From the NCBI RefSeq assembly GCF_001187505.1, contig NZ_CP012150.1:2852001-2916000 (forward strand): 64,000 nucleotides of DNA, written 5' to 3'. Shown here one piece after another: positions 3,366 to 49,360 of this stretch. Under the pieces are notes generated by a model. The model was not told the DNA's origin. It made no database searches and worked only from the letters and a program-made list of their open reading frames with translations. Both the position numbers and the translations under genes were made by a program. This DNA comes from Mycolicibacterium goodii. Its GTDB lineage: Bacteria; Actinomycetota; Actinomycetes; Mycobacteriales; Mycobacteriaceae. How positions within the stretch are numbered: the stretch's first letter is position 1; every line of letters starts with the position of its first letter.

Positions 3366-4277
3366 CTACCGGCTGATCACCCGCGGGATGTCGACACCGG
3401 CCAGCTTGTCCGGGTTGCGCATCGCATAGAAGTGCGTGATGCGCCCGTCGACGATCTCGATGGTGATCACGCCCTCGAAGCTGTCGTCGAGGTACAGCTT
3501 GAGCGCGGGGGCGTTGTTGTACATCGCCGGTTCGACCCGTACGCCCCCACCGCCAAGGCGCACCAGACCGGAGACCAGGCGGGCCACGGCGTCGGCACCC
3601 GACACCGGACGGCGCGCGGCGCTGCGCTTGCCCGCACTGTCGGCGGTCCACACCACATCGGGGGCCAGCAGCTCCATGAGCGCGTCCATGTCACCGGTCG
3701 CCGCCGCGGTGAAGAACCGCTGGGTGATCTCCATCGACACCTGTGGGTCGACCGGTTCGAAACGTTTACGACGCGACTGCACGTGGTTGCGCGCGCGGTG
3801 CGCCATCTGGCGCACCGCGGTCGTGGATTTGCCGATGGTGGAGGCGATCTCGTCGTGGCTGAAGCCGAACACGTCGTGCAGCACGAACACGGCCCGCTCA
3901 TCCGGGGTGAGGGTTTCGAGCACCACCAGCATCGCCATCGAGACCGATTCGGCGAGCACCACATCCGAGGACGCATCTTCGGCCTGGGCCACCAGCAGCG
4001 GTTCGGGCAGCCACGGGCCCACGTACTCCTCGCGCAGGCGCGAGCGGGCGCGCAGCGCGTTGAGCGACTGGCGGGTGACCAACTTGGCCAGATAGGCCTT
4101 GGTGTCGGTCACCGTGCCCAGGTCGACCTCGGCCCAGCGCAGGTAACTCTCCTGCAGCACATCGTCGGATTCGGTTGCCGTGCCGAGGATCTCGTATGCG
4201 ATGGTGAACAGCAGCGGCCGCAGGGCGGTGAACCGCTCGGCATGCTCGGTCGAGTTACCTGCGCTGGGATCGGTCAT
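3366..4277 (-). CDS. ECF41-type extracytoplasmic sigma factor (SigJ-like)
   Basis: This is an alternative RNA polymerase sigma factor of 303 residues. Sigma region 2 (about residues 15-80, RPLLFTIAYEILG to SDDVLQESYLRW) and region 4 (about 115-165, LTPDERAVFVLHDVFGFSHDEIA) are followed by a SnoaL/NTF2-like C-terminal domain. The linker GPWLPEPLLVAQ and the late NPDKL motif are hallmarks of the ECF41 group, whose C-terminal domain tunes activity in place of a classic anti-sigma factor. The start at 4277 overlaps the upstream oxidoreductase stop by 4 nt (ATGA), so the two are translationally coupled. ECF41 factors typically pair with an oxidoreductase, epimerase or decarboxylase gene. M. tuberculosis SigJ is the nearest named relative I know; orthology is not proven. 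Confidence 0.9.
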   Translation of the reverse strand: MTDPSAGNSTEHAERFTALRPLLFTIAYEILGTATESDDVLQESYLRWAEVDLGTVTDTKAYLAKLVTRQSLNALRARSRLREEYVGPWLPEPLLVAQAEDASSDVVLAESVSMAMLVVLETLTPDERAVFVLHDVFGFSHDEIASTIGKSTTAVRQMAHRARNHVQSRRKRFEPVDPQVSMEITQRFFTAAATGDMDALMELLAPDVVWTADSAGKRSAARRPVSGADAVARLVSGLVRLGGGGVRVEPAMYNNAPALKLYLDDSFEGVITIEIVDGRITHFYAMRNPDKLAGVDIPRVISR

Positions 4278-41339: not shown

Positions 41340-42365
41340 TCAGGCCGCGGGGCCGTGGCTGACCGGAGCCGTGGTGGGCGCAGGCACGGTCGTGGTCGGC
41401 TGCACACCGGCCGGCACCAGCGCGGGGTCGGCGGGCACCAGCGCGGGATCCGCGGGTGCGGCGGGCACAGCGGGCACCGCCTCGACCGGGGCGGCCGGCG
41501 GAACCGCGGTCGCCACGTTGCCCGCGGAGGCACCGGCGGGAGCCACCTCGACGGGCAGGGTGCCCTCGGCGAGCGGCGCGCCGTGCGAAACCGGCGTGGT
41601 GCCTTCGGGAGCCGGTGCGGCCGGGATTTCCGCGGGGGCCGGGGTGGTCGCGGCATCGGTGCCGGTCGCCTCGGCTTCTGCCGCGGTGGCCGCGGGCAGG
41701 TCGGTGGCACGGCTGCCCGCACCGGCGGCGGCCGGTGTGGCGGCGGTGCCTTCCTCGGCGGTCGACGCCGCAGCCGGGGCCGGGGTCGCCTCGGCTTCGG
41801 TCGCGGTCGCGGGCTCGGCCGCGGAAGATGCGGAGGATGCGGCCGGGCGGCTCTGGCCGGTGCCGCGCGGGGCCGGGGCCGATGCGGCCGGCTTGTCCCA
41901 CACCAGCAGGTCACGGCCGCCTGCGTTGTAGACGACGGTGGTGGGCTCGGGGCCGGTCACGTCGAAGTAGATTTTGCCGCTGGTCTTCTCGCCCTGGGCG
42001 ATGGTCGACGGGTTGACGCCCTGCGGGGTGGCGACCTGGAACAGCGCGCGGTAGTTCTGGCCGTCGGCGGCGCGCACGTTGAAGTTGGAGATGATCGGGG
42101 TCACGCTGCCCTGAATGGCCTCGTCGGTCGCGGTGACCTCCCACAGGGTGCCACGCACGTCGTAGGGGATGGTGTCGCTGCTGGGCTTGAGACCGGTCAC
42201 GGTCCAGGCCTGGACGACGTCACCGTTGTTCAGCTTTGCCGCGCTGCCGAGCGTCGCCGTGGTGACGGCGCTGGCGTCACCGGACGCCGCGGGTGCGGTG
42301 CCGAGGATGGCGGCGGCGGCGACGGCCGCAGCGGCCACGGCCGTACTGAGTTTCGTGATCTTCAA
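41340..42365 (-). CDS. MPT63-like exported protein with long Ala/Pro-rich tail
   Basis: The N-terminal half (about residues 1-160) has a signal peptide (VAAAAVAAAAILGTAPAASG) and a domain like the secreted antigen MPT63: GDVVQAWTVTGLKPS, RGTLWEVTATDEAIQGSVTPIISNFN split into short blocks, and GEKTSGKIYFDVTGPEPT. The second half (about 160-341) is a low-complexity Ala/Pro/Thr/Glu tail not present in MPT63 itself; it may span the cell wall. I prefer TTG 42365 with AGGAG 8 nt upstream over GTG 42374, which touches the same AGGAG. The function of MPT63 is unknown. The small membrane gene lies 150 nt upstream. Confidence 0.85.
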   Translation of the reverse strand: MKITKLSTAVAAAAVAAAAILGTAPAASGDASAVTTATLGSAAKLNNGDVVQAWTVTGLKPSSDTIPYDVRGTLWEVTATDEAIQGSVTPIISNFNVRAADGQNYRALFQVATPQGVNPSTIAQGEKTSGKIYFDVTGPEPTTVVYNAGGRDLLVWDKPAASAPAPRGTGQSRPAASSASSAAEPATATEAEATPAPAAASTAEEGTAATPAAAGAGSRATDLPAATAAEAEATGTDAATTPAPAEIPAAPAPEGTTPVSHGAPLAEGTLPVEVAPAGASAGNVATAVPPAAPVEAVPAVPAAPADPALVPADPALVPAGVQPTTTVPAPTTAPVSHGPAA

Positions 42366-42449
42366 GGCATTCACTCCTGAGTTCTCCGATTTACCGCAGG
42401 CCCCCGACAGTGGGGATGCCCACTTCACTAGCGAAGTTAGCAGTATTAG

Positions 42450-42515: not shown

Positions 42516-42776
42516 TCAGCCGGGCCAGTGGCGGGACACGATCGCGGCTACCGCCACCGCGGCGACCACGCCGAGGTAGCCGATCACCAGGCGGGTGTCG
42601 CGCAGGACGCATTTGCTGTGCATCAGCCCTGCTCGGCGGGCCCGTACGTAGCCGACCAGGCCGAGGCCGGCGAACCCTGCTACGGCCCAAGGGCCCAGAA
42701 GCCACGCCAGCAGCGCGACCGTGGCGTATACGCACAGCCGCAGCGGATCGTACGGTTGCCCGGCGGGTTCGCTCAT
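42516..42776 (-). CDS. Small two- to three-helix membrane protein, last gene of the lgt-like operon
   Basis: I do not recognise a family. The 86 residues contain about three hydrophobic segments: VYATVALLAWLLGPWAVAGF (about 15-35), AGLGLVGYVRARRAGL, and VIGYLGVVAAVAVAAIVS near the C terminus, with a basic cytosolic loop between (RARRAG, HSKCVLRD). ATG 42776 overlaps the radical SAM stop by 4 nt (ATGA), so it is made in step with that enzyme and may anchor it to the membrane or form part of the same complex. Confidence 0.75.
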   Translation of the reverse strand: MSEPAGQPYDPLRLCVYATVALLAWLLGPWAVAGFAGLGLVGYVRARRAGLMHSKCVLRDTRLVIGYLGVVAAVAVAAIVSRHWPG

Positions 42777-44341
42777 CGGATCTCGATGAGCGGTAACGCG
42801 GGCATCGCGGCGCCGGAGGCGAGCGACAACCGTTGGCGGCTCAACGCAGGCCAGGCCTGCACGGCGCAGAACGGTGCGCACTGATGCTGTTCGGCGGAGC
42901 GGGTTCCGACGTGCACGCAGCACTGGATGAGGCGTTCCTCGATCATCGTCGACATGTCCATGAACGGTTTGACGGTCAGCCGCACGACGCGTTCCCCGAG
43001 GAGCCTGCGGAGCTTGCGTCGGCGTCCCGGCAGCGCCGACGACGCCAGCGTCAATAAGGTCGACATGCCCAGATCGCAGTTCTCGCAGATGTTGCGCCAC
43101 ACGTCACCCATCTGGGGGTGCGACAGCGAGGACTGTTCGGAGAGCAGGCCGAGCAGTGATTCCTGCACGGCCAGGCGCAGTTCGCGCGGGATCTCGGTGT
43201 CGGCGATGCGGTTGGCCACCAACCCGAGTTTGTCCTTGAGGCTGTCGGTGCCGATCAGCGACACCAGCGAGCGCCACCGATCGCTGTCGTCGCGCAGCAA
43301 GTAACCGACCGAGCAACAGTGCGGGTGCGAGCACGGCAGCGCGGTCAGATCCCGCCAGGTGACCGCACCGTCGGTCTGGGGGCCCAGGCGTTTGAGGACG
43401 CCGGTGTGGGTGAGCCGGTCGAGCGGGTCGATCACACCGGAACGGCCGGAACCGAATTGGGGCTGGATCGTCAGCCCGCCGACGTACGGTGTGTCGAGCG
43501 CGAGCCGGACCATCGCCCCGATCTCGTGGTCGTTGACGCCGAGGGTCGCTGTCATCACCAGGGTCGTGAAGATCTCGCGGTCGGACAACCGTTGCAGCGC
43601 CTGGCTTTTCACCCTGCCGAGGTCGCCGCCGCGGTGGTGACGGTGGGTCTCGGCGGACAGGCCGTCGTACTGCAGGTACACCTCGACGCGTTCTCGGTGC
43701 AGCGTCAGCAGATCCAGCAGGGCATCGTCGTTGGCGATGCGAACGCCGTTGCTGTTGACCAGGATCCGGGTGATCGGCCGGTTCACCAGTTCGGCGAGCA
43801 ACTCGGAAAGTTGCGGATGCAGTGTCGGCTCACCGCCGCTGAGCATCAGCACGTCGATGCGGCCGTTCTCGCGCGCCAGGCGCTGATCGACGTTGGCGAG
43901 CACCTCGGCCACCGGGACCACGTTGCGCAGGTCGGGCGAACTGTCGGTGAAACACGTGGGGCAACGCAGGTTGCAGGCCTCGGAGATGTCCTCCAGCAGG
44001 ATGCAGGTGTGCTGGGTCTGCATCTCCGGCAGGCCGCGCAGATACGCCGACGGAATCGGGTCGAAGTTGCCCGCGACGTCGGGGGTGTGGGTCTTGGTCG
44101 GTGCCGTCCACTCCTCCAGGTACGACAGGATCTCGGGATCCTCGTCGTAGAGGGTGCGCACCAAACCGTGTGTCGGGCAGCCACGTTCGAGCCAGATCCG
44201 TCCGTCACGCTCGATCAGCACGGCGGCTAGCCGGCGTACGTCCGCCAGTGGGCGCTCGGGCGCGTCGGCGTGGCAGTGCGGGCAGAACGCGGTGACGTAG
44301 CGGTGCAGGCGATCTCCGCGCAGCCCCATGCCGGTGCTCAT
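42773..44341 (-). CDS. Tes-like (COG1964-type) radical SAM enzyme
   Basis: The 522 residues match the architecture of the radical SAM family that includes archaeal tetraether lipid synthase (Tes), which joins lipid tails by carbon-carbon bonds. Seen: an N-terminal knuckle CPHC (C20, C23) with CPTHG (C55, H58); QHTC (C113) directly before the SAM cluster motif CNLRCPTC (C123, C127, C130); SGGEPTLHPQ; a QPQFGSGR segment; CSHPHCCS; and a C-terminal CCVH...CAPFC block (C474, C475, C488, C492). Family members contain several Fe-S clusters and a mononuclear iron. The usual CGLC before QHTC is absent here, so one auxiliary cluster may be lost. It is coupled by 4-nt overlaps to its neighbours on both sides. 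The substrate is unknown; a membrane lipid is the best guess. Confidence 0.85.
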   Translation of the reverse strand: MSTGMGLRGDRLHRYVTAFCPHCHADAPERPLADVRRLAAVLIERDGRIWLERGCPTHGLVRTLYDEDPEILSYLEEWTAPTKTHTPDVAGNFDPIPSAYLRGLPEMQTQHTCILLEDISEACNLRCPTCFTDSSPDLRNVVPVAEVLANVDQRLARENGRIDVLMLSGGEPTLHPQLSELLAELVNRPITRILVNSNGVRIANDDALLDLLTLHRERVEVYLQYDGLSAETHRHHRGGDLGRVKSQALQRLSDREIFTTLVMTATLGVNDHEIGAMVRLALDTPYVGGLTIQPQFGSGRSGVIDPLDRLTHTGVLKRLGPQTDGAVTWRDLTALPCSHPHCCSVGYLLRDDSDRWRSLVSLIGTDSLKDKLGLVANRIADTEIPRELRLAVQESLLGLLSEQSSLSHPQMGDVWRNICENCDLGMSTLLTLASSALPGRRRKLRRLLGERVVRLTVKPFMDMSTMIEERLIQCCVHVGTRSAEQHQCAPFCAVQAWPALSRQRLSLASGAAMPALPLIEIR

Positions 44342-44976
44342 GTTCGGTACATCTCCGGGTTGAGGCCGGTGCAGAACCCGGCGGTGAGAACGGACATCAG
44401 CGCCCAGCCGATCATCAGGCCGATGCCGAGGCCGCGGGCGTGGGGGTTGTTGCGGCGCAGCAGGAATGTCCCGCCGCCGAACGCGATGAGCAGCAGGCCG
44501 ATCGCGGCGAGGCCGAAGACCACGCTCGAGCTGGTGGTCTGGGCTTCGAGTATGCCCCCGGCGATCAGCGTGATGAAGCCGACCACCAGGTTGATCGCCG
44601 CGTAGACGAACGGGCCGATGATCACCATGGCCACCGAGATCCGGGACGGGGAAGGGCCGTGGCCGGGTGGCGGTGGAGACGACGGATAGTCACCCGGGTA
44701 GGGCTGTGAGTAGCCCGGCGGCGGTGGGGGATGGTCGGTGGGCGGCCCTGCCGGGGGCCCGGCAGGCGGTACGCCCGGCGGCGGGCCGTACGGCGGCGGG
44801 CCGTACGGTGCGCCGGACGGCGGTTCATAGGGTACGCCCGGCGGGGGGCCGTACGGTAGGCCGGGAGGCCGCAGGTCGTACTCGTAGGCGGGCGGAATAT
44901 CTTGCGGCCCCTGCTCTTCTGGCGGTTCGCCGGCAGGCGAGGGTGGCTCGGGTGGTTGCGACGGGGGAGGGTTCAT
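44338..44976 (-). CDS. Proline-rich membrane protein (DUF4190-like)
   Basis: The 212 residues split into a cytosolic Pro/Gly/Tyr-rich N-terminal half (1-110, repeats such as PYGPPPG and PPAGPPAGPP) and a C-terminal membrane half with three hydrophobic segments (about 115-140, 147-170, 185-203). Such proteins are common in mycobacteria and often act as scaffolds or interaction partners; no enzyme motif is visible. It overlaps the lgt-like gene by 4 nt upstream and the radical SAM gene by 4 nt downstream, so a structural role in the same process is likely. Confidence 0.78.
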   Translation of the reverse strand: MNPPPSQPPEPPSPAGEPPEEQGPQDIPPAYEYDLRPPGLPYGPPPGVPYEPPSGAPYGPPPYGPPPGVPPAGPPAGPPTDHPPPPPGYSQPYPGDYPSSPPPPGHGPSPSRISVAMVIIGPFVYAAINLVVGFITLIAGGILEAQTTSSSVVFGLAAIGLLLIAFGGGTFLLRRNNPHARGLGIGLMIGWALMSVLTAGFCTGLNPEMYRT

Positions 44977-45758
44977 ACCGGCACTTCCTCACTGCGGGCT
45001 GCGCGCCGATAGTAACCGTGCCGATAGCCGTAGCACACCCGAAACCCGATGATCAGCAACGTGGGCAGCAGGAACCATTGGGGCCGGGTGAGATCCAGCC
45101 ACACCGTTTCGTTGGCGCGGACGAACTCGACGAGGAAGCGGAACACCGCGTACCCGGCGATGTAGATGACGAACAGCTCGCCGGGGTGGGTGATGCGGTT
45201 GCGCAGCCACAGCAGCACCCCGAAAGCGACGAGCTGGAACACGATCTCGTACACGAACGAGGGATGCATGGCCTGACCCGTCAGGCACGCGGGACATTCC
45301 GGGGTGGTGGCCGGGGCGTGGATGCCCCACGGCAGGCTGGTGGGCCGGCCGGGGGCCTCGGTGAGATGGCAGCCGATGCGGCCGATGGCCATGCCGAGTG
45401 CGACCGCGGGCGCGAACAGATCTCCGGTCCTGCCGCGGTATCCGCCGATGCGCTTGGCGACGTGCACGCCGACGTAGGCGCCGAGCAGTCCGCCGAGGAT
45501 GCTGCGGGATCCGAACTGCCAGGCCTCGGCGATGTTCGGGTTGGCATCGAAATTCCAGTGTTGCGCCCACCCCGACAGTCGCATGCCGATCGCACCGCCG
45601 ACCAGTGCTCCGGCCACCGCCACGATGGACTGTTCGTTGACGGCCCCGCGTCGACGCGCCTCGGCGGTGAACATCAGCACGGCGGCGAACACCCCGAGCG
45701 CGACGAACAATCCGTGGACCGGGACGGTCACGGTGCCCAGGTGCCATTCGGGAGCCAC
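44973..45758 (-). CDS. Divergent Lgt-like (prolipoprotein diacylglyceryl transferase family) protein
   Basis: This 261-residue, about seven-helix protein has the Lgt fold: SILGGLLGAYVG (86-97), GRIGCHLTEAPGR (126-138), HPSFVYE (165-171) and GYAVFRFLVEFVR (202-214). Compared with E. coli Lgt, R143, R239 and E243 are kept (R127, R207, E211), but essential H103 is leucine (L88) and N146 is cysteine (C130). It therefore probably does not lipidate prolipoproteins. M. smegmatis is reported to have a second Lgt homologue besides the true one; this is probably it. GTG 45758 is preceded by TAGGTT at 6 nt (leaderless). It heads a four-gene overlapping operon with the Tes-like radical SAM enzyme. Confidence 0.88.
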   Translation of the reverse strand: MAPEWHLGTVTVPVHGLFVALGVFAAVLMFTAEARRRGAVNEQSIVAVAGALVGGAIGMRLSGWAQHWNFDANPNIAEAWQFGSRSILGGLLGAYVGVHVAKRIGGYRGRTGDLFAPAVALGMAIGRIGCHLTEAPGRPTSLPWGIHAPATTPECPACLTGQAMHPSFVYEIVFQLVAFGVLLWLRNRITHPGELFVIYIAGYAVFRFLVEFVRANETVWLDLTRPQWFLLPTLLIIGFRVCYGYRHGYYRRAARSEEVPV

Positions 45759-45764
45759 CTGCTG

Positions 45765-45770
45765 AACCTA
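45765..45770 (-). promoter_or_regulatory. -10 element of the lgt-like operon (leaderless)
   Basis: TAGGTT on the minus strand ends 6 nt before GTG 45758. It lies in the 25-nt gap after the ZIP gene, so the operon has its own promoter although the ZIP gene is co-oriented. Confidence 0.5.
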
Positions 45771-45783
45771 ACCCGCCGCGGCG

Positions 45784-46497
45784 TCAGGTGGCGAGCGACA
45801 GACCGGCGGCGACGGCAAATCCGAGAACCGCGGCCAGTCCGGCGTTCTCGCGGGCCTTCTGGGTGGCCTCGGGGATCATCGAACCCACCAGCATGACAAG
45901 CAGTGCGCCCGCGGCGAATCCGTTGATCCCGCCCTGCAGCGCGGCGCCTGCGACCTTCTGCAACTGGTACCCGCCCACGGTCGCCACCGCGCACAGCGCC
46001 GAGATCGCCGCCCAGCCACCGATAATCGTGCGCGCCGGGTGCCCGGCGTTCCTCATGTCGCTGGCCGATCCGATCGACTCGGGCAGGTTCGACACGAAGA
46101 TCGCCACCACGAGCGCGGCACTCACGCCCGCCCCGCCCGCGATGCCGATACCCAGCACGGCCTGTTCGGGGATGCCGTCGAGAAGTGCGCCGAGCAGCAA
46201 CGGCATCCCGGCCGCGGCGCCGCCGCGGCCCATGCGGTCCACGGCGTGGTCGGCGACGTAGAAGACGATGGCGCCGACGGCCAGACCCAGTGCGACGGCC
46301 ACCGCACCGCTGACCCGAACGCCTTCCTCGGCCAGTTCGAACGAGATGCTGGAGATCAGCGCGCCTGCGCCGAAGCCGAGGACGAGACCGACGAGACGCT
46401 GGTTCCAGTCCCGGATGGCGCCCGCCACGGCGCCGATGAGCAGAGAGGACGCGGCGACCAGGCCCCACAGCAGCGCGGTGAGCACGCCTGTGAGCAT
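45784..46497 (-). CDS. ZIP-family metal transporter
   Basis: The 237-residue, about eight-helix transporter of the ZIP family usually imports Zn or other divalent metals. Metal-binding helices are visible as LLGALLDGIPEQAVLGI (ZIP proteins usually have a His in place of D or Q) and VAIFVSNLPESIGSA (the NXPE motif of helix 5 and neighbours). Several usual histidines are absent, so specificity may differ. I chose ATG 46497; an in-frame TTG at 46524 would add nine residues. It is near the NmtR/CtpD metal island and separated from the Cys-rich gene by a terminator. Confidence 0.85.
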   Translation of the reverse strand: MLTGVLTALLWGLVAASSLLIGAVAGAIRDWNQRLVGLVLGFGAGALISSISFELAEEGVRVSGAVAVALGLAVGAIVFYVADHAVDRMGRGGAAAGMPLLLGALLDGIPEQAVLGIGIAGGAGVSAALVVAIFVSNLPESIGSASDMRNAGHPARTIIGGWAAISALCAVATVGGYQLQKVAGAALQGGINGFAAGALLVMLVGSMIPEATQKARENAGLAAVLGFAVAAGLSLAT

Positions 46498-46531
46498 ACG
46501 GCTCGCGATGAATATGGTGCGCAAAGCAAAA

Positions 46532-46563
46532 GAGCCCGATCGACCGGCATGATCGATGGGCTC
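46532..46563 (-). terminator. Intrinsic terminator after the Cys-rich peptide gene
   Basis: On the minus strand GAGCCCATCGA and TCGATCGGGCTC form a stem with one bulge, followed by TTTTGCTTTG. It separates the Cys-rich gene from the ZIP gene. A second 12-bp hairpin, GCTGACCTGCCG (46575-46586) with CGGCAGGTCAGC (46601-46612), sits just after the stop codon. Confidence 0.65.
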
Positions 46564-46619
46564 ATATGGAGATTGCTGACCTGCCGCGCGGGAAGCCCGG
46601 CGGCAGGTCAGCTACGGCG

Positions 46620-46718
46620 TCAGCGCCGCACGTTGCAGTTCGGCGGATTTCCGCAGTGGTGGCCACCGTCGCATGCGTTGCAGCGACAGGTGCAGTTTCC
46701 CTTGGTTGCGATGCGCAT
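46620..46718 (-). CDS. 32-residue Cys/His-rich metallothionein-like peptide
   Basis: The product reads MRIATKGNCTCRCNAC then DGGHHCGNPPNCNVRR: six Cys and two His in 32 residues, spaced CXCXC-X2-C then HHC-X5-C. This density of soft ligands suggests a small metal-binding peptide (metallothionein-like), but the sequence is not the MymT copper peptide of M. tuberculosis. ATG 46718 has AGGAG 10 nt upstream. It is followed by two hairpins, one with a T tract. It lies between NmtR/CtpD and a ZIP transporter, so nickel, cobalt or zinc binding is a reasonable inference. The opposite strand has no better reading. Confidence 0.72.
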   Translation of the reverse strand: MRIATKGNCTCRCNACDGGHHCGNPPNCNVRR

Positions 46719-46807
46719 CGTTGCTCAACTCCTAACGTGCTCAAGCATTGCTCATGCTGCACGGCAGCAAATTGCCTGAGCTCAGGCGGACATCAACATA
46801 TAACAAC

Positions 46808-46945
46808 TCAACAATAGTTCGGCTCATCCGGAAAATAAAGGATTTCCGTGACCGCCCGGCGCTGTGCCGCGGGCATCTCATCGATGTGAGGACCGCATGA
46901 GCGGCAAATGAAATTCTTTGCCGGCAGCCCGGTTTCCCGGCTCAG
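46808..46945 (-). CDS. Candidate 45-residue protein with a CXXC motif
   Basis: A frame overlapping the nmtR stop reads protein-like: SRETGLPAKNF, ICRSCGPHIDEMPAAQ, then ILYFPDEPNYC, ending TGA at 46808. Only non-ATG starts are available; CTG 46945 would overlap the nmtR stop as CTGA, or CTG 46927 inside. The CXXC pair and terminal Cys fit a metal-binding role in this island. No standard start codon makes this uncertain; it may instead be a degraded gene. Confidence 0.35.
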   Translation of the reverse strand: MSRETGLPAKNFICRSCGPHIDEMPAAQRRAVTEILYFPDEPNYC

Positions 46946-47295
46946 GCGGAGGTGTCGCGGACGCCGAGCCGGAGGTGTTCGATGTGGTAGATCGCCTCGT
47001 CGAGGAGTTGTGCGACGTGGCTGTCGTAGAGCCGGTAGACGATGTTGCGCCCGGACCGGTCACCGGTCACCAGGCCCAGGGCGCGCAACAGGCGGAGCTG
47101 GTTGGACACCGCCGGCTGCTCCATCCCGACCGCTGCGGACAGTTCGGTGACCGAGCACGGGGATTCACGCAGCCGCGTCAGGATCAGCAGCCGGTTGGGG
47201 GAGGCCAGTGCCTGTAGTGTCTCGGCGACCTTGACCGCTGACGCGGCATCCAGCGATGCGGCGGGCGTCGTCCGCCCCTCGACACCATGACCCAT
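46942..47295 (-). CDS. nmtR: Nickel/cobalt-sensing ArsR-type repressor NmtR
   Basis: The 117-residue product closely resembles M. tuberculosis NmtR, including the N-terminal MGHGVEGR whose Gly2/His3 help bind nickel, the recognition region VTELSAAVGMEQPAVSNQLRLLRALGLV, and the C-terminal DSHVAQLLDEAIYHIEHL with the alpha-5 metal ligands (D, H, H). ATG 47295 is set by this N terminus; ATG 47328 upstream would add MSPCASCENGR and bury it. It is divergent from ctpD; a palindromic stretch lies between. Metal binding should release it and allow efflux. Confidence 0.9.
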   Translation of the reverse strand: MGHGVEGRTTPAASLDAASAVKVAETLQALASPNRLLILTRLRESPCSVTELSAAVGMEQPAVSNQLRLLRALGLVTGDRSGRNIVYRLYDSHVAQLLDEAIYHIEHLRLGVRDTSA

Positions 47296-47330
47296 GCGCC
47301 CATTCTCGCATGACGCGCAAGGACTCATTG

Positions 47331-47354
47331 ATACATTTCAATCTCTACATGTAT
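47331..47354. promoter_or_regulatory. Candidate NmtR operator between nmtR and ctpD
   Basis: ATACAT (47331-47336) and ATGTAT (47349-47354) form an inverted repeat with a 12-nt spacer; TACATGTA (47346-47353) is a smaller palindrome within it. The region is AT-rich for this genome, as SmtB/ArsR-type operators often are. Confidence 0.5.
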
Positions 47355-47392
47355 AAAGGTATGCGTTCTTCCGTTTTGTCGAAGGGTGCTTG

Positions 47393-49360
47393 ATGACCGC
47401 GCTGTATCCCGCCACCGCACCCACGCTCGACCCACCGGCGCGCGTTCGGCCGGGCAACTGGTTGTGCGCGGTGCCCTCGGTGCGGTGGGCTGCCGCGGCA
47501 CTCGGACTGTTCCTGTCCGGGTTGGGCGCACAACTCGGCGGCGCACCGCAGTTCGTGCACTGGACGCTCTACCTGGCCTGTTATCTGGTCGGTGGGTGGG
47601 AACCCGCCTGGGCCGGCGTGCAGGCTCTGCGGCGTCGCAACCTCGATGTGGACCTGCTGATGATCGTCGCGGCGATCGGCGCGGCCGCCATCGGACAGGT
47701 GTTCGACGGTGCGCTGTTGATCCTCATCTTCGCCACGTCGGGCGCGCTGGAGGATGTGGCGACGACGCGCACCGAGCGGTCGGTGCGCGGATTGCTCGAC
47801 CTCGCACCCGAAGACGCCGCACTCCTCGGCGGTGACGGCGCCGAACGGGTCGTCTCCGCTGCCGACCTGCGGCCCGGCGACGTCATCGTGGTGCGTCCGG
47901 GTGAGCGAATCTCCGCTGACGGCACGGTGATTCACGGCACCTCGGAGGTCGATCAGTCCTCGATCACCGGTGAGCCGCTGCCCGCCGCCAAAGCCGTCGG
48001 CGATGAGGTGTTCGCAGGCACGCTCAACGGTTCGGGCGCGCTGCGCATCGAGGTGACGCGGGAACCGTCGCAGACCGTGGTGGCGCGCATCGTGGCGATG
48101 GTCGCCGAGGCGTCGGCGACCAAGGCCACCACCCAACTGTTCATCGAGAAGATCGAGCAGCGCTACTCGGTGATCGTCGTGGCCGCGACGCTCGCGTTGC
48201 TGACCGTGCCGCTGCTGTTCGGTGCCGACCTGCGCTCGACGCTGTTGCGCGCCATGACGTTCATGATCGTCGCATCACCGTGCGCCGTGGTGCTGGCGAC
48301 CATGCCGCCGCTGCTGTCGGCGATCGCCAACGCCAGCCGCCACGGGGTATTGGTGAAATCCGCGGTCGCGATGGAACGGTTGGCCGATACCGATCTGGTG
48401 GTGCTCGACAAGACCGGCACGTTGACCGCGGGGGAGCCCGTGGTATCCCGCGTGGTTGCCCTCGCAGACGCCGACGTGCTCAGGATCGCCGCTGCCGCAG
48501 AACAATTCAGTGAGCACCCGTTGGGGCGCGCGATCGTCGCCGCGGCCGATACCCCGCTCCTCGAGGCGGTGGACTTCATCGCGCTACCGGGCCGGGGTGT
48601 GCGTGCGGGTGTGGACGGGCGCGTCGTCGAGGTGATCAGTCCCTCGGCGTACGCGGAAGCAGATGGCGACGTGCGTGAGCGCTGCGCCGCGATCGAGAAC
48701 GAGGGCGGCACCGCCGTCGTCGTGCTCGTCGACGCGGCGCCCGTCGGGATCATCGGACTGGTCGACCGACTCCGGTCCGATGCACCCGCCGCGGTGGCCC
48801 GCCTGGCGGAGTTGACGACGCAACCGCCCATGCTGCTGACGGGCGACAACCGGCGCGCGGCCGAACGTCTCGCCGGTCAGGTCGGTGTCACCGATGTGCG
48901 TGCCGAACTGCTCCCCGACGGTAAAGCCGCTGCGGTGCAGGAACTTCAGCGCGACGGCAGGCGCGTGCTGGTGGTGGGCGACGGCGTCAACGACGCACCC
49001 GCGATGGCCGCCGCGCACACGTCCATCGCGATGGGCCGGGCGGGGGCCGACCTGACGGTTCAGACCGCCGACGTCGTCACCATCCGCGACGAACTCGCCG
49101 CCATCCCCACGGTGGTCGCGCTGGCGCGGCGGGCCCGCCGCGTGGTGATCGCCAACCTCGTCATCGCGGGCACCGCGATCACCGGGCTCGTCGCCTGGGA
49201 CCTGTTCGGCCACCTGCCGTTACCGCTCGGCGTGGCAGGTCATGAGGGGTCGACGATCCTGGTCGCCCTCAACGGCCTGCGCCTGCTGAGCAACCGCGCC
49301 TGGACCCGAGCGTTCCCCTCGCGAGCAGACACAAACCTGCACATTTCGGGCCGAAAATAG
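47393..49360 (+). CDS. ctpD: P1B-4 cobalt/nickel-exporting P-type ATPase CtpD
   Basis: This 655-residue metal-efflux ATPase shows TM-helix motif SPC in IVASPCAVVLATMPPLL and the late HEGST motif (GHEGSTILVALNGLRLL), both signatures of the P1B-4 subgroup (Co2+, Ni2+, Fe2+). It also has TGE in SSITGEPLP, phosphorylation site DKTGTLTAGEP and GDGVNDAPAM. There is no N-terminal metal-binding CXXC or His-rich domain. M. smegmatis CtpD is described as a Co2+ transporter. ATG 47393 has GAAGGG 6 nt upstream. It is divergent from nmtR and its stop lies inside a long palindrome shared with the next, convergent gene. Confidence 0.92.
   Translation: MTALYPATAPTLDPPARVRPGNWLCAVPSVRWAAAALGLFLSGLGAQLGGAPQFVHWTLYLACYLVGGWEPAWAGVQALRRRNLDVDLLMIVAAIGAAAIGQVFDGALLILIFATSGALEDVATTRTERSVRGLLDLAPEDAALLGGDGAERVVSAADLRPGDVIVVRPGERISADGTVIHGTSEVDQSSITGEPLPAAKAVGDEVFAGTLNGSGALRIEVTREPSQTVVARIVAMVAEASATKATTQLFIEKIEQRYSVIVVAATLALLTVPLLFGADLRSTLLRAMTFMIVASPCAVVLATMPPLLSAIANASRHGVLVKSAVAMERLADTDLVVLDKTGTLTAGEPVVSRVVALADADVLRIAAAAEQFSEHPLGRAIVAAADTPLLEAVDFIALPGRGVRAGVDGRVVEVISPSAYAEADGDVRERCAAIENEGGTAVVVLVDAAPVGIIGLVDRLRSDAPAAVARLAELTTQPPMLLTGDNRRAAERLAGQVGVTDVRAELLPDGKAAAVQELQRDGRRVLVVGDGVNDAPAMAAAHTSIAMGRAGADLTVQTADVVTIRDELAAIPTVVALARRARRVVIANLVIAGTAITGLVAWDLFGHLPLPLGVAGHEGSTILVALNGLRLLSNRAWTRAFPSRADTNLHISGRK

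Follow-up and report, generated by a model that had tools for sequence, protein, structure and literature searches.

What does a bacterium do with an Lgt-fold membrane protein and a Tes-fold radical enzyme that are encoded side by side? The question arises from four consecutive minus-strand genes in the single-contig, 7.1 Mb genome of Mycolicibacterium goodii, within a window of 64,000 nt (positions 2852001-2916000) that is the whole stretch analysed here. The genes encode LgtL, the Lgt-fold protein (44973-45758; 261 residues, GTG start); ProTM, with a Pro-rich N-terminus and three membrane helices predicted by hydropathy of its open reading frame (ORF) (44338-44976); rSAM, a radical S-adenosylmethionine (SAM) protein of 522 residues with the fold of the archaeal tetraether synthase Tes (42773-44341); and smTM, a small membrane protein of 86 residues (42516-42776). 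Relatives of rSAM and of LgtL handle lipid tails, and here both are locked to a dedicated, Cys-tailed membrane protein. The four genes are referred to below as the module, which we tentatively propose to be a membrane-bound lipid-modifying system.

Linkage and spread of the module

Among 198 genomes of the genus, 52 have an rSAM ortholog, which in 50 of them is near full length and at least 71% identical (it is in two pieces in G074 and cut by a contig end in G008). LgtL was matched at E <= 1e-60 in 54 genomes. Both genes occur in 52 genomes, LgtL alone in two, rSAM alone in none, and neither in 144; Fisher's test of this co-occurrence ignores relatedness. Wherever both are present they share contig and strand (52/52), with a gap of 106-858 bp. 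Linkage was also followed in loci on genome contigs, the best 80 of 338 relatives, with rSAM identities of 77-89%, which come from Mycobacterium, Mycolicibacterium, Mycobacteroides, Nocardia, Nonomuraea, Microbispora, Microtetraspora, Planomonospora, and Sphaerimonospora. In 79 of the 80, LgtL and rSAM share a strand and are at most 2.5 kb apart; at the exception, L040, the contig begins 443 bp before rSAM. A first-pass annotation of this DNA had named conservation of the Lgt-like neighbour as a check on its reading, and both sets of genomes bear that conservation out.

The module extends beyond mycobacteria. In 396 genomes of the phylum, rSAM at ∼60-67% identity was found in six genomes outside the genus, five of which (L087-L091) have LgtL at 40-53% identity together with smTM (a weak match in L090), and in the sixth (L092) rSAM is cut short by the end of its contig. 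The rSAM relatives at larger distances (L093-L106), ∼30% identical for the most part, have no LgtL in the stretch examined; one of these, L105, is a partial match of 45-74% near a contig start. Absences in the genome searches are not proofs, because only part of the first-look candidates was scored per genome (in the genus, 25 for ProTM, 7 for rSAM, and 13 for LgtL; in the phylum, 12 for ProTM and 3 for rSAM). The rSAM family itself is wider: a profile of four relatives at ∼60% identity retrieved 2526 proteins at E <= 0.001 among 7995 candidates scored, more distant relatives included, and the best 120 of that search contain proteins from Gemmatimonadetes, Herpetosiphonaceae, Agromyces, and Microbacterium terrae.

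Three records in a plasmid collection also match: M. avium pS2b (343,811 bp), an 864 kb M. branderi plasmid (pJCM12687), and a chromosome-sized Nonomuraea gerenzanensis record. In both mycobacterial plasmids (L122 and L123) rSAM has an Lgt-family neighbour, and transposase genes of the IS110 or IS200/IS605 type lie close by, which suggests horizontal spread.

Successive genes overlap by 4 nt in M. goodii (44973-44976, 44338-44341, and 42773-42776), and the ORF coordinates confirm the coupled four-gene arrangement first noticed on reading the sequence. Of the 54 loci (among the 80) where a motif-bearing ORF stops just before rSAM, 51 have a ProTM/rSAM overlap of exactly 4 nt, and the rSAM/smTM overlap is of that length in 25 of the 36 loci having smTM. 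This recurrence argues that the overlaps are not due to chance. These 36 smTM genes were found by tblastn, and alignment shows a conserved KCxLRDTRLV-like loop in the protein.

The first-pass annotation had also placed the genes behind a leaderless-type promoter. A candidate -10 element, TAGGTT (45765-45770, minus strand), lies 6 nt before the LgtL GTG, and TAGGTT or TAAGTT occurs 6-7 nt before the start in all six mycobacterial loci inspected (two of them near-identical M. peregrinum loci), out of eight of the 80 loci inspected in all. The Nocardia locus has TACGCT instead; in the Nonomuraea locus LgtL is not the first gene, and no TAGGTT-like element lies upstream. A sigma-70 promoter scan, of a kind that does not cover leaderless-type promoters, gave no site.

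A comparison of 21 loci found only the rSAM, LgtL, ProTM, and smTM families across genera. A further set of genes, F2-F7, is common only to the Nonomuraea, Microtetraspora, Microbispora, Sphaerimonospora, and Planomonospora loci. A larger pathway cluster was considered and rejected, as the four families are all that the genera have in common in these 21 loci.

Two enzyme folds with changed key residues

The nearest solved structure to rSAM, by far, is Tes (also GDGT-MAS, MJ0619; PDB 7tol/7tom). The two are 24% identical and agree in overall fold, as comparison with the predicted rSAM structure shows, with residues 376-397 and 433-437 of the prediction poor. The cluster motif CxxxCxxC (C123/C127/C130; 43952-43975, minus strand) and a rubredoxin-type CxxC...CxxH set (C20, C23, C55, H58) are present in 328 of 328 homologues, a redundant set, 240 of them best hits of protein searches, that includes the window copy and leaves out L091, L092, and loci whose reading frames are short or interrupted.

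A Tes-like radical SAM protein was what the first-pass annotation had described, and while the fold and these motifs uphold the likeness, the profile search and several Tes residues do not. The score on the NCBIfam Tes profile (NF045702) is 147.6 bits, against a curated cut-off of 450, and the distant orthologs L087 and L090 score 143 and 151. At the positions aligned with the Tes ligands of the cluster [Fe4S4]N (C73, C77, C80, and a His), none of 14 ortholog rows has a Cys, and 8 of the 9 other rows in the same alignment have a CP..DCGxC-type motif. Tes Met439 is replaced by Lys458 in all 328 homologues and Tyr459 by Val478 in at least 98%. Both residues are fully conserved across 1000 archaeal homologues, and an M439A variant is still active (PMC9433317, in excerpt). 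Together with the missed cut-off, these losses led us to reject the identification of rSAM as Tes. It also has conserved cysteines beyond the Tes set (C337, C419, C422, and C488) and, unlike Tes, the partner LgtL.

Nor does rSAM appear to be an ordinary bacterial member of its family, an assignment rejected on its lower profile scores. Its best NCBIfam match is the radical SAM (seleno)protein TrsS (NF045646), at 185.8 bits, far below the cut-off of 490. The three scanned members of the ortholog branch score 186-201 bits for TrsS and 143-151 for Tes; seven of eight scanned non-ortholog relatives score 314-471 and 233-331, and the eighth, L104, scores 203 and 190. A tree of 20 sequences, one of them Tes, has weak inner supports.

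That TrsS outscores Tes raises the possibility that rSAM modifies a small molecule or a protein, with LgtL merely anchoring the complex or supplying it with lipid. The next folds after Tes, which are MoaA and then the peptide enzymes SuiB and SkfB, fit this idea, as do the extra cysteines. Even so, we consider it rather improbable: the TrsS cut-off is missed as well, no gene beyond the module is common across genera in the 21 loci compared, and the linkage to LgtL points to lipids.

Some mycobacteria and other actinobacteria have an additional radical SAM protein that is closer to Tes and ∼31% identical to rSAM (genomes G026, G064, G015, G158, G125, G057, G091, G105, G083, and G043; loci L096-L099). 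The copies scanned (L096-L098) score 330-335 bits for TrsS and 307-331 for Tes, below both cut-offs. Separately, the rSAM frame of genome G355 (L091, 742-2586) contains, between query residues 352 and 353, an insert of tandem repeats with units of ∼30 residues, and another repeated stretch lies in a nearby frame at L116.

LgtL matches Lgt by profile (PF01790) and by structure comparison, with a pLDDT of 77.6 for the predicted model; a single-sequence phmmer search against the PDB gave no match, and the profile search succeeded. The active site was compared with that of L001, the housekeeping Lgt of M. goodii, and with the essential residues given in PMC13251419; the fold was compared with E. 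coli Lgt (5azb). LgtL keeps Arg127, Arg207, Tyr203, and Glu211, the counterparts of Lgt R143, R239, Y235, and E243, and also has a counterpart of G154. R127 and R207, which correspond to R143 and R239, occur in all 208 LgtL homologues, a redundant set, 120 of them best hits of protein searches, that includes the window copy and leaves out L001, L002, and loci with short or interrupted frames. The two Lgt arginines have been proposed as head-group binders (PMC13251419, in excerpt). The earlier description of the gene as Lgt-like is thus sound as regards fold and arginines, but membership of Lgt proper goes no further. The score on the equivalog profile TIGR00544 is 98 bits, against a cut-off of 118.9. 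His15 replaces Tyr26 and Cys130 replaces Asn146 in 208/208 homologues, and position 88, equivalent to Lgt position 103 (His, with W/Y/F in some), is Leu in 200 and Ile in 8. Y26 and N146 are essential in Lgt (PMC13251419, in excerpt). A further cysteine, C155, is found in 204 of 208 and in most is part of a head-domain CPxC motif.

The same paper, as excerpted, treats MSMEG_5408 of M. smegmatis as a second homologue of Lgt that has Y26H and N146C and is presumed to be of low Lgt activity, and makes no mention there of a radical SAM neighbour. Matched by those residues, MSMEG_5408 is probably the counterpart of LgtL, and the module offers a candidate role for this second Lgt. With three active-site positions changed and low activity presumed for MSMEG_5408, LgtL is probably not an ordinary Lgt. 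Speculatively, a new catalytic set such as an acyl-thioester site might be formed by three conserved residues, His15, Cys130, and Glu134.

The presumed low activity also invites the simpler explanation that LgtL is a second, weak lipoprotein transferase whose linkage to rSAM reflects passive co-inheritance on islands and plasmids, such as those of M. avium and M. branderi. We regard this as highly improbable, since the genes stay linked, with their 4-nt overlaps, in genera whose flanking genes differ, and remain linked at LgtL identities of 40-53%, and the same three positions are replaced in every one of the 208 homologues.

ProTM and the proposed chemistry

In ProTM, a Pro-rich stretch is followed by the three predicted helices and a near-invariant C-terminal motif, T-A-G-F-C202-T-G-L-N-P-E-M-Y (44347-44385, minus strand), defined by pattern and a 20-row alignment. 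G-x-C-xxx-NP-xx-Y closes the protein in 76 of the 80 loci, 75 with CTG and L079 with CTA. Hydropathy and charges, on which the topology is based, place the Cys on the outer face, because the last helix follows a positively charged segment. When the last 96 residues (the 20-row alignment) were used as query, strong matches were found in 51 of the 52 module genomes of the genus; in the other, G032, a different Pro-rich membrane protein adjoins LgtL (L120). The 146 non-module genomes yielded a single weak match (G181, E 8e-4). Within the genus, ProTM is module-specific. Strong matches in the phylum sample were confined to four module-bearing Mycobacterium genomes, with two weak ones elsewhere. 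ProTM is single-copy in the M. goodii genome (E up to 10, all 80 candidates scored), and the idea that it is one of many substrates was rejected for lack of a second copy there.

Some loci depart from this pattern. Five genomes of the genus (L125-L129) carry a second, tandem ProTM-like copy, which in L126-L129 ends in another Cys tail, VGC-x-SML-x-GLE; L125 keeps CTGxNP in both copies. Other small membrane proteins with a near-C-terminal Cys, weakly resembling ProTM, adjoin LgtL in L088 and L116.

Taken as a whole, the module would be a membrane-bound lipid-modifying system in which LgtL supplies lipid to the Tes-fold rSAM and ProTM is the dedicated partner, a reading to which we give a little less than an even chance. 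Lipid chemistry is the simplest reading of a gene set in which a radical enzyme of Tes fold stays linked to a fold that binds phosphatidylglycerol. LgtL, with its altered active site, would bind phosphatidylglycerol or a similar lipid through the two retained arginines and pass on a diacylglyceryl-containing lipid. Kept at the inner face of the membrane (in loci with smTM, by that protein), rSAM would functionalise a saturated acyl chain by first abstracting a hydrogen, and ProTM would act as scaffold or acceptor. Coupling of two chains, as in Tes, is possible via the retained C-terminal iron-sulphur site, because its cysteines are kept, and the proposal for Tes is that the corresponding cluster forms a carbon-sulphur intermediate. 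With further Tes residues lost, methylation, desaturation, or some different C-H chemistry would fit equally well.

Several observations weigh against a lipid-modifying system. A shared fold alone shows no function, rSAM departs from Tes in score, ligands, and residues as set out above, and LgtL may be catalytically dead. Two genomes have LgtL without rSAM, G141 and G091, the former at a contig end (no module gene on the other end) and the latter in pieces with a stop. By BLAST, ProTM was not found in L087, L089, or L090, which have LgtL and rSAM, nor in L046 among the 80 loci, which also lacks the motif, and smTM was not found by tblastn in 44 of the 80 loci (the protein is short and some contigs are cut). 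The ProTM tail region weakly resembles PF24191, a mycobacteriophage membrane family, below cut-off, so similar tails may exist elsewhere. Literature listings on Tes or diabolic acid in mycobacteria show no unusual acyl chain. To our knowledge, the hosts that can be named are mostly mesophilic actinobacteria, which are not classic makers of membrane-spanning lipids.

Lgt acts at the outer face of the membrane, the side on which the ProTM Cys is predicted to lie. The module-specific Cys tail makes protein lipidation a serious rival: ProTM would be the substrate, LgtL would lipidate the outer C-terminal Cys with a diacylglyceryl or an acyl group (uncleaved, as a reversed lipobox), and rSAM would modify the lipid or the CTGxNPxxY tail. 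The near confinement of ProTM to module genomes, its single copy, and its conserved tail fit this proposal. It nevertheless seems unlikely to us, given the three LgtL- and rSAM-bearing loci where BLAST found no ProTM, the absence of a strong ProTM match from the six more distant rSAM genomes of the phylum sample, and the main ProTM copy of G050, which keeps CTG and has lost NPxxY. Moreover, the Cys spacing is not that of a canonical lipobox, and an outer Cys would be out of reach for a cytosolic rSAM. A bolder form of the lipid-modifying system, in which LgtL moves phosphatidylglycerol-derived diacylglyceryl onto the ProTM Cys (or another lipid) and rSAM cross-links its saturated chains, is decidedly improbable; if true, aerobic actinobacteria would have a protein-anchored or membrane-spanning lipid from an Lgt-Tes partnership, a new membrane chemistry.

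Bacterial Tes homologues have been reported without proven function (PMC8941075 and PMC11868695, in excerpt), and Lloyd et al. note that, among bacteria with homologues of the archaeal enzyme, there are some that are not known to produce biphytanyl chains (PMC9433317, in excerpt). The bacterial membrane-spanning lipid synthase Mss, compared here by description only, is reported to have the Tes catalytic architecture by modelling, as does the rSAM model; the hosts in the excerpted text are Bacillota and Thermotogota, and no Lgt-like partner is mentioned in it (PMC13274423). The parts available of PMC9433317, PMC8941075, PMC13251419, PMC11868695, PMC13274423, PMC13188914, and PMC7174638 do not describe the module, and a search of open-licence literature, including queries by presumed locus tags, found no account of it, in line with the first-pass view that it is undescribed in mycobacteria. 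The module offers a genetically tractable case of a bacterial Tes-like enzyme, for which a laboratory host exists.

Neighbouring genes

Upstream of the module (45784-49360) are genes for a ZIP-like permease, an ArsR-type regulator, and a divergent P-type metal ATPase, an ordinary-looking metal set named by reading the sequence; Pfam gave no match for the ZIP-like permease. On the other side (41340-42428) lies the gene for an MPT63-like secreted protein (DUF1942) with a long Ala/Pro-rich C-terminal extension. ZIP genes are found near the module in 11 of the 80 loci and MPT63-like genes in 12; both are neighbours, not module members. The three genomes of family f45 (L113, at 3390-3791, L114, and L118) all encode an uncharacterised protein of 133-135 residues after smTM, and two of them have a molybdopterin oxidoreductase-like gene upstream of LgtL; in the remaining one the contig stops before that point.

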